Of a stretch of 64,000 nucleotides of DNA, positions 44,435 through 49,322 are shown in pieces; the stretch's first letter is position 1; the number at the start of each line of letters is the position of its first letter. The position numbers and the translations under genes were made by a program. The DNA is from Paracoccus aurantiacus (lineage in GTDB: Bacteria > Pseudomonadota > Alphaproteobacteria > Rhodobacterales > Rhodobacteraceae). Location of the stretch: NCBI RefSeq assembly GCF_007993065.1, contig NZ_VOPL01000009.1, positions 1 through 64,000 of the forward strand, in the 5' to 3' direction. Below the pieces are notes generated by a model that saw only the letters and a list, made by a program, of their open reading frames with translations, had not been told where the DNA came from and searched no databases.

Positions 44435-44456
44435 GATTGAAGCGCAAGATTCGGAG
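44435..44456 (+). promoter_or_regulatory. Ada-box element 1 (before the Cys-motif gene and alkB)
   Basis: GATTGAAGCGCAA followed by GATTCGGAG. It nearly matches the E. coli ada site (AAT-N6-GCAA) and agrees with element 3 at 14 of 22 bases, all of GCAAG and CGGAG included. A CATTCT -10-like hexamer starts 22 bases downstream (44479). It ends 52 bases before the ATG. Confidence 0.7.
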
Positions 44457-44508
44457 TGGCGTCTGAGCACCACTGCGCCATTCTTGCGCCTGCAAAAAGG
44501 AGCAACGA

Positions 44509-45120
44509 ATGCCGCTGCAAAACCGTGTCACCCCGTTTGGCGAAATTGTCGCCGCGGATGCGCGGGGTATGTTCACGGGCAATCGCGGCATTCTCCACGC
44601 ACCCCAGGGGCAGCGCTTGGCCAATAGGCGATGGACAAGCAAGGCGTGGCTGATCTGTCGTTGCGATTACAAGGGTCGTCGGCGCGAGGTGATGACAGGC
44701 CGAAAATGGACTGAGTTGTTCTTTCTGGATGAGGCGACCGCGCTTGCGGCGGGTCATCGCCCCTGTTTCCGGTGCCGCAGAGACGCCGCCCTGCGATACC
44801 GCTACAGTTGGCAGAACGCACCTTCGGCCAAGGCGATGGATACCGCCCTGCACTCACAGCGATTGCACGGACGCGACAAACGGTTGCATCCTCTGCCATC
44901 GGGGTCACTGCCTGTCGGCGTGATGGCGGCTGCCGGGCCTACGGCGTGGCTCTGGGCCGGACACTGGCTGAAATGGTCGCATACCGGATACATGGCGGGA
45001 AAGCCGCCCGGACTTGACGGACTGCTGACACCGCCGTCAAGCTACGACGCGCTGAAAGCCGGGTATCGTCCGACGCTCCACCCATCCGCAGTTGTGAAAG
45101 GGACCAGCAATGACCAGTGA
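44509..45120 (+). CDS. Uncharacterised protein with Ada-like Cys motif, upstream of alkB
   Basis: A 203-residue protein of unknown function. FFLDEATALAAGHRPCFRC (residues 71-89) parallels the Ada zinc region of the neighbouring ada gene, AFYDAPKDAEAAGFRPCMRC. With C50 and C52 it could form a four-Cys zinc site (C50, C52, C86, C89). AAAAGGAGCAACGA precedes the ATG. It overlaps alkB by 11 bases and shares its Ada-box promoter, so a role in alkylation damage is likely. Biochemistry is unknown. Confidence 0.8.
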   Translation: MPLQNRVTPFGEIVAADARGMFTGNRGILHAPQGQRLANRRWTSKAWLICRCDYKGRRREVMTGRKWTELFFLDEATALAAGHRPCFRCRRDAALRYRYSWQNAPSAKAMDTALHSQRLHGRDKRLHPLPSGSLPVGVMAAAGPTAWLWAGHWLKWSHTGYMAGKPPGLDGLLTPPSSYDALKAGYRPTLHPSAVVKGTSNDQ

Positions 45121-45763
45121 TCTTTTCGCCGGGCTCGAGCCGAAGCAAAGCGCGCAGGAGAATATGGCAAAGGGCGCTATCCTTCTGCGCGGGCAGGCCG
45201 TGGCGCGGGCGGATGACCTTCTGGCCGCGATTGGTAAGGTTTCGGCGGCCTCGCCGTTTCGCAATATGGTGACGCCCGGCGGGCATGTGATGTCGGTCGC
45301 GATGACCAATTGCGGACAGGCCGGCTGGGTTACGGACCGCAGCGGCTATCGCTATGACGGCATCGACCCGCAGACCGGGCAGCTCTTGCCCGAGATGCCC
45401 GAAAGCCTCCTGACGGTCGCGACCGAAGCCGCGACGAAGGCGGGCTATCCCGATTTTCGTCCCGATGCCTGCCTGATCAACCGCTATGAACCGGGCGCGC
45501 GGCTGTCGCTGCATCAAGACAGAAATGAGCGGGACATGGCCAATCCGATTGTGTCGGTTTCGCTTGGCCTGCCCGCGACATTCCAGTTCGGCGGGCTGAA
45601 GCGGAACGATCCGGTGAAGAAATACGCGCTGCTGCATGGCGATGTCGCGGTCTGGGGCGGGCCGTCGCGACTTTGCTATCATGGGGTGATGATGCTGAAG
45701 GATGGTGAGCATCCTGTGGTCGGGCGCATGCGGCTGAACCTGACCTTTCGCGGTGCCTTGTGA
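45110..45763 (+). CDS. alkB: AlkB DNA dealkylating dioxygenase
   Basis: A 217-residue Fe(II)/2-oxoglutarate dioxygenase that reverses 1-methyladenine and 3-methylcytosine. The iron triad is H135 and D137 in LSLHQDRNERD and H191 in LCYHGV; 2OG-binding arginines are R208 and R214 in RMRLNLTFR. These residues are spaced as in E. coli AlkB. It overlaps the upstream gene by 11 bases and is co-transcribed with it. Confidence 0.95.
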   Translation: MTSDLFAGLEPKQSAQENMAKGAILLRGQAVARADDLLAAIGKVSAASPFRNMVTPGGHVMSVAMTNCGQAGWVTDRSGYRYDGIDPQTGQLLPEMPESLLTVATEAATKAGYPDFRPDACLINRYEPGARLSLHQDRNERDMANPIVSVSLGLPATFQFGGLKRNDPVKKYALLHGDVAVWGGPSRLCYHGVMMLKDGEHPVVGRMRLNLTFRGAL

Positions 45764-45772
45764 AATCGCCAA

Positions 45773-45794
45773 TATTTGAGGGCAAGGATCGGAG
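45773..45794 (+). promoter_or_regulatory. Ada-box element 2 (before SDR)
   Basis: TATTTGAGGGCAA followed by GGATCGGAG, 17 of 22 bases identical to elements 3 and 4. A GACACT -10-like hexamer lies 20 bases downstream. It sits 10 bases after the alkB stop and 91 bases before the SDR start. Confidence 0.65.
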
Positions 45795-45885
45795 TGTTCC
45801 GCTGCACGATTGCTGACACTTCAAGAGGCGGCAATGCGCGAAACATCAGGCGCTGCCGCAACTGAAAGTATGACAGAGGTGTCAA

Positions 45886-46635
45886 ATGGGTATTCTTGAA
45901 AACAAGGTCGCAATCGTCACAGGAGCGTCGTCAGGTATAGGCAGGGAAATCGCGCGTTTGTTCGCGTCGGAAGGTGCGGCGGTCGTGGTGACGGCACGCC
46001 GCGAGAAGGAACTCGGCAAACTTGTCAATGAGCTTTCCCAACAGGGTGGAAAGGCAGCTTTCGTCGCAGGTGATGTGACTGATGAAACACTGCATCAGCG
46101 GGTGGTCGAGATGGCACTTGCAGAGTTCGGCGGGCTGGACATCGCCGTAAACAACGCTGGGACCGTGGGTCCATACAAAGCGCTGGCGGAGGTGACCCTG
46201 CAAGAATGGCAAGAGCCTTTGTCCGTCAACCTCACGGGTGCGTTTCTTGGCGCGAGGCATCAGATCCCGGCGATGTTGCCGCGCGGCGGTGGGGCCATCG
46301 TGTTCACGTCGAGCTTCGTCGGCAACAGCGCGGGTCTGCCGGGGATGGCTGCATATGGTGCCTCTAAGGCCGGTCTGATGGGGCTCGTGCGGGGAATCGC
46401 CGCCGACTACGCAGCTGACGGAATTCGCGCCAATGCCTTGATGCCGGGCGGGACCGATACAGATGCGGCAGGCGACGATGCTCAGAAGGAATGGGCCGCA
46501 GGGCTTCATGCGATGAAGCGTATTGCTGATCCTCAGGAAATCGCAAAGGCCGCGCTTTTCCTTGCCAGCCCGATGGCGAGTTTTGTGACGGGAACCGCAT
46601 TGTTTGCCGATGGCGGCAACTCTGCGACAAAATAG
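45886..46635 (+). CDS. Short-chain dehydrogenase in the Ada regulon
   Basis: A 249-residue classical SDR: VTGASSGIGREIARLFASEG, DIAVNNAGTVG, catalytic FTSSFVG ... AAYGASKAG, and ALFADGGNSATK at the end. Its promoter carries an Ada-box-like element, so it should respond to alkylating agents. Possible tasks are detoxifying an aldehyde released by dealkylation or the alkylating agent itself. Formaldehyde is not a usual SDR substrate, so this is open. Confidence 0.88.
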   Translation: MGILENKVAIVTGASSGIGREIARLFASEGAAVVVTARREKELGKLVNELSQQGGKAAFVAGDVTDETLHQRVVEMALAEFGGLDIAVNNAGTVGPYKALAEVTLQEWQEPLSVNLTGAFLGARHQIPAMLPRGGGAIVFTSSFVGNSAGLPGMAAYGASKAGLMGLVRGIAADYAADGIRANALMPGGTDTDAAGDDAQKEWAAGLHAMKRIADPQEIAKAALFLASPMASFVTGTALFADGGNSATK

Positions 46636-46658
46636 ACGGCACATTGTCCGAGCATGCA

Positions 46659-46702
46659 GCAGACCGGGTTGCCGGTCTGCCGACGTCAAAGTGCGTCGGC
46701 AG
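46659..46702 (+). terminator. Two overlapping hairpins after the SDR gene
   Basis: GCAGACCGG-GTTG-CCGGTCTGC (46659-46680) and CTGCCGACG-N8-CGTCGGCAG (46677-46702) are both perfect 9-bp stems, sharing CTGC, so only one can form fully. CTTTTA follows 13 bases later. Likely the SDR terminator. Confidence 0.65.
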
Positions 46703-46749
46703 ATCGACAGACCTCTTTTAGTGCGTATGGGCATCCACTTGCCGCCGAG

Positions 46750-46771
46750 AATTTGAAAGCAAGGCGCGGAG
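46750..46771 (+). promoter_or_regulatory. Ada-box element 3 (ada promoter)
   Basis: AATTTGAAAGCAA followed by GGCGCGGAG. AAT-N6-GCAA is exactly the half-site known for methylated E. coli Ada. TATATT (46793-46798) lies 21 bases downstream as -10, placing CGGAG in the -35 region. It is 22/22 identical to element 4. Confidence 0.85.
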
Positions 46772-46830
46772 TGAGGCGCGGCGAAAGCGCCCTATATTGA
46801 GCTCAACAGCCAACGAACCGAGTAACCACG

Positions 46831-47895
46831 ATGACCAAGAATGAAACCCAGACCGAACAGGACCCGCGCTGGCAAAGCGTGGTGGAGCGGGATACGGGCG
46901 CGGATGGCAGCTTTGTCTTTGCCGTCAAAACCACCGGCATCTATTGCCGTCCGTCCTGCCCCTCGCGCCGTGCCAAGCCGGCCAATGTCGCCTTCTATGA
47001 CGCACCGAAGGATGCGGAGGCTGCCGGTTTCCGCCCCTGCATGCGCTGCAATCCCAAGGGGCAATCGGCCGCACAAGCCAATGCCGAAATCATTGCCGAG
47101 GCCTGCCGGATCATCGTGGCCTCGGACGACATGCCAAAGCTGGATGATCTCGCCGCAAAGGTGGGCTTCAGCAGCCATTACTTTCACCGCCAGTTCAAGG
47201 CGATCACCGGGCTGACCCCCCGCGAATGGGGCGCTGCGCATCGCGCGCAGAAGGTCCGCGCTGAACTGCAGGATAAGGAAAATACCGTGACCGAAGCGAT
47301 TTACGACGCCGGGTTCAACGCGAACAGCCGGTTTTACGCGATATCGAACAAGGTGCTGGGCATGACGCCCACGGCCTTCCGTCAGGGTGGCAAGGATACC
47401 GATATCCGCTTTGCCCTAGGCAAAAGCGCGCTCGGCGCGATCCTTGTGGCCGAGAGCGACAAGGGCATCTGTGCCATTGCATTGGGGGACGATCCCGAAA
47501 CCCTGGTCAACGAGTTGCAGGACCGCTTTCCGAAGGCCAATCTGATCGGCGGCGATGCGGCGTTCGATGCCCGCGTCGCGCAGGTTGTCGGCTTTGTTGA
47601 GGCCCCGCAGATCGGGCTGGACCTTCCCCTGGACATTCGCGGCACGGCGTTCCAGCAACGCGTTTGGCAGGCTTTGCGCGACATCCCCGTGGGAGAGACT
47701 GTCAGCTATACCGAGATCGCCCGCCAGATCGGCGCGCCGAAATCGGTCCGCGCCGTGGCCGGGGCCTGCGCTGCCAACAAGCTCGCCGTGGCGATCCCGT
47801 GTCACCGCGTCGTGCGCGCCGATGGCGATCTGTCCGGCTATCGCTGGGGGATCGAACGCAAACGCGCCCTGCTGGAAAAGGAGGCCGCAGCATGA
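46831..47895 (+). CDS. ada: Ada bifunctional transcriptional activator / O6-alkylguanine-DNA alkyltransferase
   Basis: A 354-residue full Ada. The N-terminal zinc domain has C39, C43, C70 and C73 (GIYCRPSCPS and FRPCMRC), where C39 takes methyl from phosphotriesters. An AraC-type HTH follows (LAAKVGFSSHYFHRQFKAITG), then the alkyltransferase domain with active Cys 324 in AIPCHRVVRADG. It activates its own promoter through element 3 and presumably the three others. ATGA overlap to the 2OG oxygenase gene. Confidence 0.95.
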   Translation: MTKNETQTEQDPRWQSVVERDTGADGSFVFAVKTTGIYCRPSCPSRRAKPANVAFYDAPKDAEAAGFRPCMRCNPKGQSAAQANAEIIAEACRIIVASDDMPKLDDLAAKVGFSSHYFHRQFKAITGLTPREWGAAHRAQKVRAELQDKENTVTEAIYDAGFNANSRFYAISNKVLGMTPTAFRQGGKDTDIRFALGKSALGAILVAESDKGICAIALGDDPETLVNELQDRFPKANLIGGDAAFDARVAQVVGFVEAPQIGLDLPLDIRGTAFQQRVWQALRDIPVGETVSYTEIARQIGAPKSVRAVAGACAANKLAVAIPCHRVVRADGDLSGYRWGIERKRALLEKEAAA

Positions 47896-48641
47896 ATGCC
47901 GTCACTGATTTCATCCCCGCCGCGCAGGTCGTGAAATCGGCAGAGCAGCGCCTTGCCGGATATGACTGGGCCGCCTTCGCCGATGAAATGAACTGCTTCG
48001 GCTGCGCCACCCTGAAAGGCGTTCTGTCACCGGAGGAGTGCCGCGATCTCGCGGCGCTTTACCCGCAAGAGAAGCATTTCCGCAGCCATATCCACATGGC
48101 GCGGCACGGTTTCGGAAAGGGCGAATACCGCTATTTCAAATACCCGCTGCCGGACCTGCTGGGCGGTTTGCGCACAGCGCTCTGGCCGAAACTGGCCGGG
48201 GTCGCGAACAGCTGGAACGAACGGATGGGGATCGATCAGCGCTATCCCGAGGCGCATGCCGATTTCCTGCGCCAATGCCACGAGGCCGGGCAGAAACGCC
48301 CAACGCCCTTGCTGCTGCAATATGTCACAGGCGACTTCAACTGCCTGCATCAGGACCTTTACGGCGATCTTGCCTTTCCGATCCAGGTTGCGTTCCTGCT
48401 GTCCGAACCGGGCCGCGATTTCACCGGCGGTGAGTTCGTCCTGACCGAACAACGCCCCCGCATGCAAAGCCGCGCCGAGGTCGTGCCGCTGAAGCAAGGC
48501 GATGCCGTCGCCTTCGCGGTCCATAACCGCCCGGTTCAGGGCAGCCGCGGCAATTACCGCGTCAACCTGCGCCACGGCGTCAGCCGCGTCCGCAGCGGTC
48601 AGCGCCACACCGTCGGGATCATCTTTCACGACGCAAAGTGA
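47892..48641 (+). CDS. 2OG-Fe(II) oxygenase co-transcribed with ada
   Basis: A 249-residue dioxygenase. Iron ligands: H153 and D155 in NCLHQDLYGD and probably H228 in NLRHGV; a 2OG-binding Arg follows in RSGQRHTVGIIF. The family (often annotated prolyl-hydroxylase-like) commonly follows ada in alphaproteobacteria, yet its substrate is undetermined. Coupling by ATGA to ada and location in the Ada regulon suggest repair of alkylated nucleic acid, distinct from AlkB. Confidence 0.85.
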   Translation: MNAVTDFIPAAQVVKSAEQRLAGYDWAAFADEMNCFGCATLKGVLSPEECRDLAALYPQEKHFRSHIHMARHGFGKGEYRYFKYPLPDLLGGLRTALWPKLAGVANSWNERMGIDQRYPEAHADFLRQCHEAGQKRPTPLLLQYVTGDFNCLHQDLYGDLAFPIQVAFLLSEPGRDFTGGEFVLTEQRPRMQSRAEVVPLKQGDAVAFAVHNRPVQGSRGNYRVNLRHGVSRVRSGQRHTVGIIFHDAK

Positions 48642-48658
48642 TCCGCGGATCATCCGAA

Positions 48659-48700
48659 GCCCGGCGCGCGCGGTCGATTGATCGCGGGCGCCGGGCGTTT
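48659..48700 (+). terminator. Rho-independent terminator of ada-oxygenase operon
   Basis: GCCCGGCGC (48659-48667) pairs with GCGCCGGGC (48688-48696), followed by GTTTTG. Just before it a perfect palindrome TGATCCGCGGATCA (48639-48652) overlaps the stop codon. Confidence 0.8.
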
Positions 48701-48725
48701 TGATTCTTGTCTGGGGCAATGTCCG

Positions 48726-48747
48726 AATTTGAAAGCAAGGCGCGGAG
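48726..48747 (+). promoter_or_regulatory. Ada-box element 4 (ogt promoter)
   Basis: AATTTGAAAGCAA followed by GGCGCGGAG, identical over 22 bases to element 3 while the flanks differ. TATGTT (48770-48775) lies 22 bases downstream. It ends 56 bases before the ogt ATG. Confidence 0.85.
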
Positions 48748-48803
48748 CGTCACAAACGAAGACACGGACTATGTTCAAGGTAACTGAAAAAGGAGCGGAG
48801 ATC

Positions 48804-49322
48804 ATGTCCGAACAAATCTCATACGCATGGGGCGAAAGCTCGCTTGGCGGGTTCATCGTGGTCTCGTCGTCAGCCGGTATCGTCGCCTTCGAATTCGCGG
48901 ACAATCGCAAAGCAATATTGGACGCCCTCATGCAAAGGCTTCCCAATGCTCGCTTGAAAGAGGATCAAAGCGGTCTCGCTGATCTCATCGAGAAGCTTTC
49001 AGACGTCGTCGATCATCCGGAGTCTGGCGCGTACATACCTCTTGACCCGCAGGGCTCTGACTATGAGCGCCAAGTCTGGCAGATGCTACGTGACATTCCC
49101 GCCGGTGAGACGACGAATTACGGCGCAATCGCAGCCCAGCTGGGCACAAGGGACGCACGCGACGTTACAGCAGCCATCGCCGCGAACGGTATCGCCATCC
49201 TGATCCCCTGCCATCGCGTGATCAAGAAAGACGGTAAGATTTCCGGGTATCGCTGGGGATATCGGCGCAAGCGGACATTGCTGGAAAGGGAAAAGCTGGC
49301 GGAACCGGACCAATCGATTTGA
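48804..49322 (+). CDS. ogt: Methylated-DNA-protein-cysteine methyltransferase (Ogt)
   Basis: A 172-residue stand-alone alkyltransferase. Active Cys 136 is in LIPCHRVIKKDG, preceded by AGETTNYGAIAAQLGT with the conserved helix and followed by SGYRWGYRRKR. I start at 48804 (MSEQISYAW) after AAAAAGGAGCGGAGA; an upstream ATG at 48771 would overlap the -10. It transfers O6-methyl groups from guanine to itself and duplicates the C-terminal activity of Ada under the same control element. Confidence 0.92.
   Translation: MSEQISYAWGESSLGGFIVVSSSAGIVAFEFADNRKAILDALMQRLPNARLKEDQSGLADLIEKLSDVVDHPESGAYIPLDPQGSDYERQVWQMLRDIPAGETTNYGAIAAQLGTRDARDVTAAIAANGIAILIPCHRVIKKDGKISGYRWGYRRKRTLLEREKLAEPDQSI

Follow-up and report, generated by a model that had tools for sequence, protein, structure and literature searches.

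Ada is a classic methylation-activated transcription factor. In Escherichia coli, its operator consists of an A-box (AAT), six free bases and a B-box (GCAA), and its regulon comprises ada, alkA, alkB and aidB; the -10 hexamer of E. coli ada lies farther from the B-box than in the locus considered here, a group of four Ada-type operators in a 64,000-nucleotide stretch of Paracoccus aurantiacus (contig NZ_VOPL01000009.1, positions 1 to 64,000; hereafter the window). Methyl transfer to the zinc (Zn) domain enables E. coli Ada to bind DNA (PMC4437013). The Caulobacter protein Cada2, which has no Zn domain, occupies a site identified by chromatin immunoprecipitation sequencing as GCAA plus a CGG termed the X-box, with no A-box, and all organisms with E. 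coli-like Adas in the same set showed E. coli features (Kamat et al., 2024, PMC10957082). Binding to the X-box was ascribed to a unique RLHD motif, and Arg114 is essential, as R114A abolishes Cada2 function (PMC10957082). The Ada boxes of Pseudomonas putida alkA and gcdH combine an AAT or ATT A-box with a GCAA B-box, as in the window, and the available parts of that report describe no X-box, which the window operators have (PMC3788762).

The window operators share the A-box, spacing and B-box of E. coli, in variant form in two of the four, and the regulator has the same architecture; ada and alkB are common to both regulons, as is an AlkA-type gene in Paracoccus relatives. In contrast to E. 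coli ada, an X-box is present and the -10 hexamer lies only 34–35 bases from the B-box; each unit also has its own operator, and a short-chain dehydrogenase/reductase (SDR), an oxygenase and ogt are added. The elements have GCAA and CGG at fixed spacing as Cada2 sites do (PMC10957082), in the same GCAAG-N3-CGG register as the Cada2-like promoters read in this analysis, which have the -10 hexamer at +35. However, an A-box is present and the X-box runs on as AGTGY rather than GCGG, and the window Ada keeps its Zn domain and has RFY at the place of RLHD, so that neither operator nor regulator is of the Cada2 type (no A-box, no Zn domain, RLHD).

We consider it highly probable that the four elements are three-part activator sites for the neighbouring Ada, which would switch on four units together. 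What was observed directly is where the sites lie, how they are built, how far they are conserved and which genes they accompany. The elements and their -10-like hexamers, with manually counted distances from the G of GCAA, are as follows (bit scores refer to an independent matrix described below).

44435..44456, plus strand: Ada operator 1, before gene1-alkB, read directly as GATTGAAGCGCAAGATTCGGAG, with A-box GAT, B-box GCAAG and X-box CGGAG; 22.4 bits; at the same place in genomes G036 and G089.
44479..44484, plus strand: -10-like CATTCT of gene1-alkB, at +35, the same distance as the -10 hexamer in 57/68 ada promoters of relatives.
45773..45794, plus strand: Ada operator 2, before the SDR gene, read directly as TATTTGAGGGCAAGGATCGGAG; 25.2 bits; boxes also precede some SDR homologues elsewhere.
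46750..46771, plus strand: Ada operator 3, before ada-oxygenase, read directly as AATTTGAAAGCAAGGCGCGGAG; 34.6 bits; before ada in relatives too.
46793..46798, plus strand: -10-like TATATT of ada, at +34.
48726..48747, plus strand: Ada operator 4, before ogt, read directly as AATTTGAAAGCAAGGCGCGGAG; 36.0 bits.
48770..48775, plus strand: -10-like TATGTT of ogt, at +35, overlying an ATG at 48771.

A sequence-only reading of the window had proposed these four elements, and direct reading of the sequence confirmed their positions. Its counts were exact, elements 3 and 4 being identical over 22 bases and elements 1 and 2 sharing 14/22 and 17/22, and the common spacing of GCAAG and CGGAG was borne out, as only these four places in the window match the pattern GCAAGNNNCGGAG perfectly; once one mismatch is allowed, the two pentamers lose their distinctiveness (10 matches against 7.9 expected). 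A -10-like hexamer does follow each element at +33 to +35, that of the SDR unit being a weak GACACT at +33. The identification with the E. coli site, AAT-N6-GCAA, held in part: AAT is literal in elements 3 and 4, and elements 1 and 2 carry the variants GAT and TAT.

The pattern ATTNNANNGCAAGNNNCGGAG has four exact matches in the 3,785,048-base genome, all of them the window elements; one mismatch adds two matches (none in the reversed-pattern control), and two mismatches give 19 against 12 in the control, which is noise. Because this pattern was derived from the sites themselves, an independent matrix of 27 columns, built from 64 ada promoters with Paracoccus excluded, was used as the test. 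The four elements were its top four matches in the window, the next best scoring 6.5 bits, the best in the reversed window 7.7 bits and the maximum over 40 simulated 64-kb strands 14.5 bits. Further members were sought by pattern across the P. aurantiacus genome, and L005-L019, which differ from the pattern at one or two positions, were then scored with the matrix; none was accepted as a further regulon member. The one-mismatch matches L005 and L006 lie inside P-type-ATPase-like reading frames and L015, at 25.5 bits, lies inside an acyl-CoA-ligase-like frame (names read from sequence), and L009, at 18.9 bits, has no convincing gene downstream. A blind exact pattern, RATTNNANNGCAAGNNNCGGAGYG, gave six hits in four of 208 alphaproteobacterial genomes including this one, and its reverse gave none. 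Three hits fell here (the R of the pattern excludes element 2), and the others lay before ada, an ogt-type gene and a glutathione S-transferase gene (one each). The last of these (locus L411, 802-1437, minus strand) has a perfect Ada operator with TATGGT at +34.

Conservation before ada was examined in the best 80 of at least 581 confirmed relatives, with Adas 58–94% identical to the window Ada; these are its nearest relatives, and the training promoters were drawn from among them. As labelled, they include Alpha-, Beta- and Gammaproteobacteria, Corallococcus, Acidobacteria, Nitrospiria and Verrucomicrobiaceae, several being metagenome-assembled genomes whose labels may be wrong. In 69/80 loci, the 350-base block that scored highest under a matrix of the four window sites, out of the entire locus, was the one directly before ada. 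So that the X-box would not be built in, promoters were anchored on the A-box and B-box alone, which gave 70 sites in 69 loci (11 loci had no anchor, and one of the two L031 sites is clearly spurious). The register that emerged is GCAAG, 3 free bases, CGGAGTGY, 19 free bases and TAnnnT, the X-box starting 8 bases after the G of the B-box. Conservation in the X-box was C 96, G 97, G 99, A 81, G 93, T 86 and G 97%, and in the -10 hexamer T 81, A 93 and T 77% at +35, +36 and +40, with flanks mostly below 0.2 bits per position. A 27-column matrix from 68 of these promoters, run on the 80 loci (964,729 bases, both strands), found 110 sites of at least 14 bits, whereas the reversed sequences gave none. 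The sequence-only reading would have been contradicted by a lack of conservation upstream of orthologues, which did not occur: a site of at least 18 bits stands directly before ada in 77/80 loci, and in the other three it stands one gene earlier, before a co-directional oxygenase gene in L056 (in two pieces in different frames), an SDR gene in L076 and a SnoaL-like gene in L082. The Zn-domain Adas sampled therefore appear mostly to have a three-part A-B-X operator. The proposal that CGGAG extends the Ada site was likewise right; since its CGG part had been described in 2024, as the Cada2 X-box, the extension is not wholly new (PMC10957082).

The identity of elements 3 and 4 could also reflect a recent local duplication or a mobile repeat with no regulatory meaning. 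However, the flanks of these two elements are unlike each other, G036 and G089 have the same arrangement of four sites but carry a phosphoenolpyruvate (PEP) mutase gene instead of the SDR behind site 2, and the conservation before ada well beyond the genus already contradicts such an origin, to which we attach practically no weight.

Among 125 Paracoccus genomes, an ada of the window type (type 1) is present at full length in 36 and as a fragmentary match in G022, making 37, and the element scores at least 14 bits before 33/36 of the full-length genes. The exact element occurs in 23 genomes, all within the 37/125 with a type-1 match (hypergeometric 8e-16, uncorrected for kinship). A second Ada, a paralogue 32–38% identical, is found in 95/125 genomes at E 1e-40 and is mostly an alternative to type-1 Ada, only 12 of the genomes having both. 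The nine second Adas examined (L204-L211, L220) have SGFR in the second helix-turn-helix (HTH2) and no such box, the best score being -2.9 bits. One such Ada-type protein, 35% identical and with SGFR in HTH2, is encoded at G000:C12:268359-269336 (L204).

The X-box of the window can be set beside that of Cada2. Upstream of the RLHD proteins of Caulobacteraceae, GCAA-N4-CGG was found in 22/22 cases, with the consensus GCAAGAA.CGGGCGG and the -10 hexamer at +35 in 19/22; no A-box was found in these 22 promoters, and 3/23 reversed Cada2-like sequences also match GCAA-N4-CGG. Cada2-like and Zn-domain ada promoters thus have one common B-X-(-10) frame, in register. It is conceivable that Ada reads only the A-box and B-box, as in E. 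coli, and that CGGAGTGY is a core-promoter element (-35 or sigma-factor site) travelling along. CGGAGTGY does abut the -35 position, and its T13 and G14 would coincide with the TTG of a -35 hexamer at 17-bp spacing. However, the best-conserved part, CGG, sits 2–4 bases upstream of that hexamer, and Cada2-like promoters have the same -10 distance and CGG but continue with GCGG instead of AGTG, so a shared -35 element does not explain the CGG. In addition, scrambling the B-box and X-box together, or replacing the X-box with an A-box, stops a Cada2 reporter (PMC10957082). We therefore regard the core-promoter explanation as unlikely.

A reader of the X-box is suggested by the protein. The Arg of the Cada2 RLHD motif aligns with Arg167 of the window Ada, within the RFY of HTH2, and this Arg is accordingly not unique to Cada2; R167, F168 and Y169 are invariant across 24 Adas. 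The E. coli K-12 ada promoter, AATTAAAGCGCAAGATTGTTGG, has GTTGG at the X-box position, and its protein has SSYYR against SRFYA. In a sample of 93 rows centred on Enterobacterales (7 without anchor), an X-box matching at least 4/5 was found for 12/17 Adas with the Arg and 6/69 without it (Fisher 5e-7). When the 80 loci, Paracoccus, Enterobacterales and a class-wide gammaproteobacterial sample were pooled (16 duplicates removed; 25/219 rows without an A/B anchor left out), the figures were 106/124 and 6/70, and L406, from the class-wide sample, lacks both Arg and X-box. The coupling of Arg and X-box is suggestive, and the second HTH of the AraC-type domain, through Arg167, is the likely reader of the X-box. 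The solved Ada-DNA complexes 1zgw and 1u8b (E. coli fragments) align to residues 6-140 and 10-140 of the window Ada, and HTH2 is therefore left out of them. In the Enterobacteriaceae promoters L227, L230, L232, L236-L238, L240 and L243, which read GCAAGATTGCGGGTTT, CGG lies one base off the X-box position, possibly as a decayed or re-spaced X-box.

The operator can also be compared with the marbox, the site of another two-HTH AraC-type protein. In the marbox, the first half-site holds GCA and the second lies about 10 bases on. The marbox consensus is gcactaattgctaaa (PMC5684230), and in our own comparison the half-sites of MarA, which has a similar two-HTH AraC-type domain, fall about where B and X lie, with an unrelated regulon and trigger and a second half-site unlike the X-box. 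As read from sequence alone, the window Ada has both HTHs and its operators have two half-sites about one turn apart. A second, separate regulator might instead bind CGGAG beside Ada, since composite sites are common and we infer the contact between Ada and CGGAG. This seems very improbable, as the spacing is fixed across loci of several phyla (as labelled), no Paracoccus genome without a type-1 ada match contains an exact element, and the two half-sites of an AraC-type domain, as for MarA, fall within the site (PMC5684230; our comparison).

In the proposed mechanism, the Zn domain would accept a methyl group from damaged DNA and then contact the A-box (AAT or a variant), HTH1 of the AraC-type domain would contact the B-box GCAAG, and HTH2 would contact the X-box CGGAGTGY, abutting the -35 region, via Arg167. 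Methyl-Ada would be placed against the -35 region and would recruit RNA polymerase to a -10 hexamer at a fixed distance, so that ada-oxygenase, ogt, gene1-alkB and SDR would be turned on jointly. Binding by Ada, its methyl dependence, the activation and the Arg167–X-box contact are what we infer from the sites and the aligned proteins. The genes of these units, all on the plus strand, are listed below.

44509..45120, plus strand: gene1, 203 amino acids, unnamed, with an RPCxRC stretch like that of the Ada Zn domain (PF02805, E 7e-4, below cut-off).
45110..45763, plus strand: alkB, overlapping gene1 (NCBIfam NF011930, 341.9 bits, cut-off 267).
45886..46635, plus strand: SDR oxidoreductase of the PRK07478 family (NF005681, 373.6 bits, cut-off 267).
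46831..47895, plus strand: ada, with Zn domain, two-HTH AraC domain and methyltransferase (Pfam; NCBIfam NF011964).
47892..48641, plus strand: 2-oxoglutarate-Fe(II) oxygenase (Oxygenase-NA; PF09859, 290.6 bits), its start overlapping the ada stop.
48804..49322, plus strand: ogt-like methyltransferase, 172 amino acids (PF01035, E 3.6e-29 in a scan of the longer version starting at 48771).

Operator 3 precedes an ada whose product has Zn (PF02805, 105.6 bits), AraC-type and methyltransferase domains, and Pfam HTH_18 covers both HTHs at residues 107-185. In Foldseek, the Ada model matches known Ada and methyltransferase structures, and AraC-type domains weakly. For ogt, 48804 is likelier than 48771 to be the start, because the -10 hexamer TATGTT overlies the first possible ATG. 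The best PDB match of gene1 is N-Ada (E 0.045), and gene1 carries FFLDEATALAAGHRPCFRC in common with the Ada Zn domain (AFYDAPKDAEAAGFRPCMRC in the window Ada); since RPCxxC was found again in the gene1 homologues inspected, gene1 may be related to the Ada metal domain as a protein standing on its own. Its structure model, with a predicted local distance difference test (pLDDT) score of 32, is useless.

The same operator before alkylation-repair genes was found for ada-oxygenase, ogt and gene1-alkB here and for an AlkA-type glycosylase in G036 and G089. In the 80 loci, 34 further sites of at least 13 bits were surveyed, some without a convincing gene (Pfam was run for the glycosylase and PEP mutase of L020, and for L096, L082, L043, L061 (TMEM175) and L076; other names come from sequence or tblastn). 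They include sites before Oxygenase-NA genes (L059, L072, L056), ogt-type genes (L084, L046, L087, L075, L065, L071, L061, L020), SDRs (L096, 70% identical to the window SDR; L076, 57%), helix-hairpin-helix (HhH) glycosylases (L020, L023), PEP mutase and gene1 (both in L020), SnoaL-like genes (L082, L075, L061, L051), TMEM175-like genes (L061, L051) and a flavin reductase (L043). The SnoaL-like and TMEM175-like genes with Ada boxes lie near ada in the alphaproteobacterial loci L061, L051, L075 and L082. G036 and L020 (P. isoporae) have identical ada genes. In L020 (= G036:C29) and L161 (G089), operator 1 lies back to back with a separate Ada box, which belongs to a divergent HhH-GPD (AlkA-type) gene. 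An SDR in G056 (53% identical) has a box with two mismatches. In a class-wide search, 25 SDR homologues besides the window's own were examined, with a box of at least 14 bits in four and of 8.9–12.9 bits in three, against about 0.03 expected at 8 bits (worked by hand from the reversed control). As only part of the homologues have boxes, the SDR would be a regulon member in some lineages only. Gene1 adjoins alkB in L281, L284 and L061, and an ada-type gene in L297; a gene1-alkB box elsewhere was seen only in the close relatives G036 and G089. The four-unit regulon of the sequence-only reading is consequently supported by boxes before ada, ogt and a minority of SDR homologues elsewhere, and for gene1-alkB the support stays within those two genomes; co-induction of all four units by methylating agents is its prediction.

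Several observations weigh against a three-part operator read by Ada. In CGGAGTGY, the T-G may be what is left of a -35 element. Good boxes are missing before the type-1 adas of G014, G039 and G042 among the 36 Paracoccus genes examined, the box of G070 scores 16 bits although it has no CGGAG, and L193 (RLHD, Bradyrhizobium) and L385 (RLYD) have no GCAA-N4-CGG. For the downstream units, 18/25 SDR homologues have no box, three of them 65–66% identical, and 0/21 more distant gene1 homologues with upstream DNA have one (a 22nd was too short to score). With regard to the Arg, 18 Adas that have it score below 4/5 for the X-box (among them L196, L343, L353 and L405), six have an X-box without it (L201, L312, L316, L323, L326, L336), and 72/74 Adas without it come from the enterobacterial samples. 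On trees, the Arg changes only 6–7 times, giving 3–6 independent pairs, with which a paired test of Arg and X-box cannot reach significance (8 duplicate loci were dropped from the enterobacterial tree, and these plus 3 Paracoccus duplicates and L403 from the pooled tree, which retained the duplicates L147, L181, L340 and L346). The pLDDT of the Ada model is below 50 over residues 145-176, and HTH2 is therefore poorly modelled.

The A-box and B-box were already known, as was CGG for Cada2. As far as the literature searched goes, four points are new: that Zn-domain Adas have a three-part operator, with the X-box extended to CGGAGTGY; that this operator and the Cada2 site share one frame; that most of the E. 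coli relatives examined lack the X-box; and that the SDR is a putative recurrent member; no report of an X-box in Zn-domain Ada promoters or of an SDR under Ada was found in the open-licence PMC literature, which is not proof of absence.

On balance, we lean slightly towards a wider view in which A-B-X is the general form for Zn-domain Adas, read by three modules. E. coli Ada would then be derived, having lost the HTH2 Arg and the X-box, Cada2 would be the B-X core without the A-module, and the regulon of the complete form would include detoxifying oxidoreductases and transferases (SDR, glutathione S-transferase, flavin reductase, SnoaL-like) and not DNA repair alone. Should a third box prove to be read by most Adas, E. 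coli would be an incomplete guide, and the published split between Ada (A and B) and Cada2 (B and X) would merge into one scheme. With the sharp 27-base matrix, it would also become possible to predict alkylation regulons across many bacteria, and among their members enzymes not linked to alkylation defence in the literature searched, such as this SDR family.

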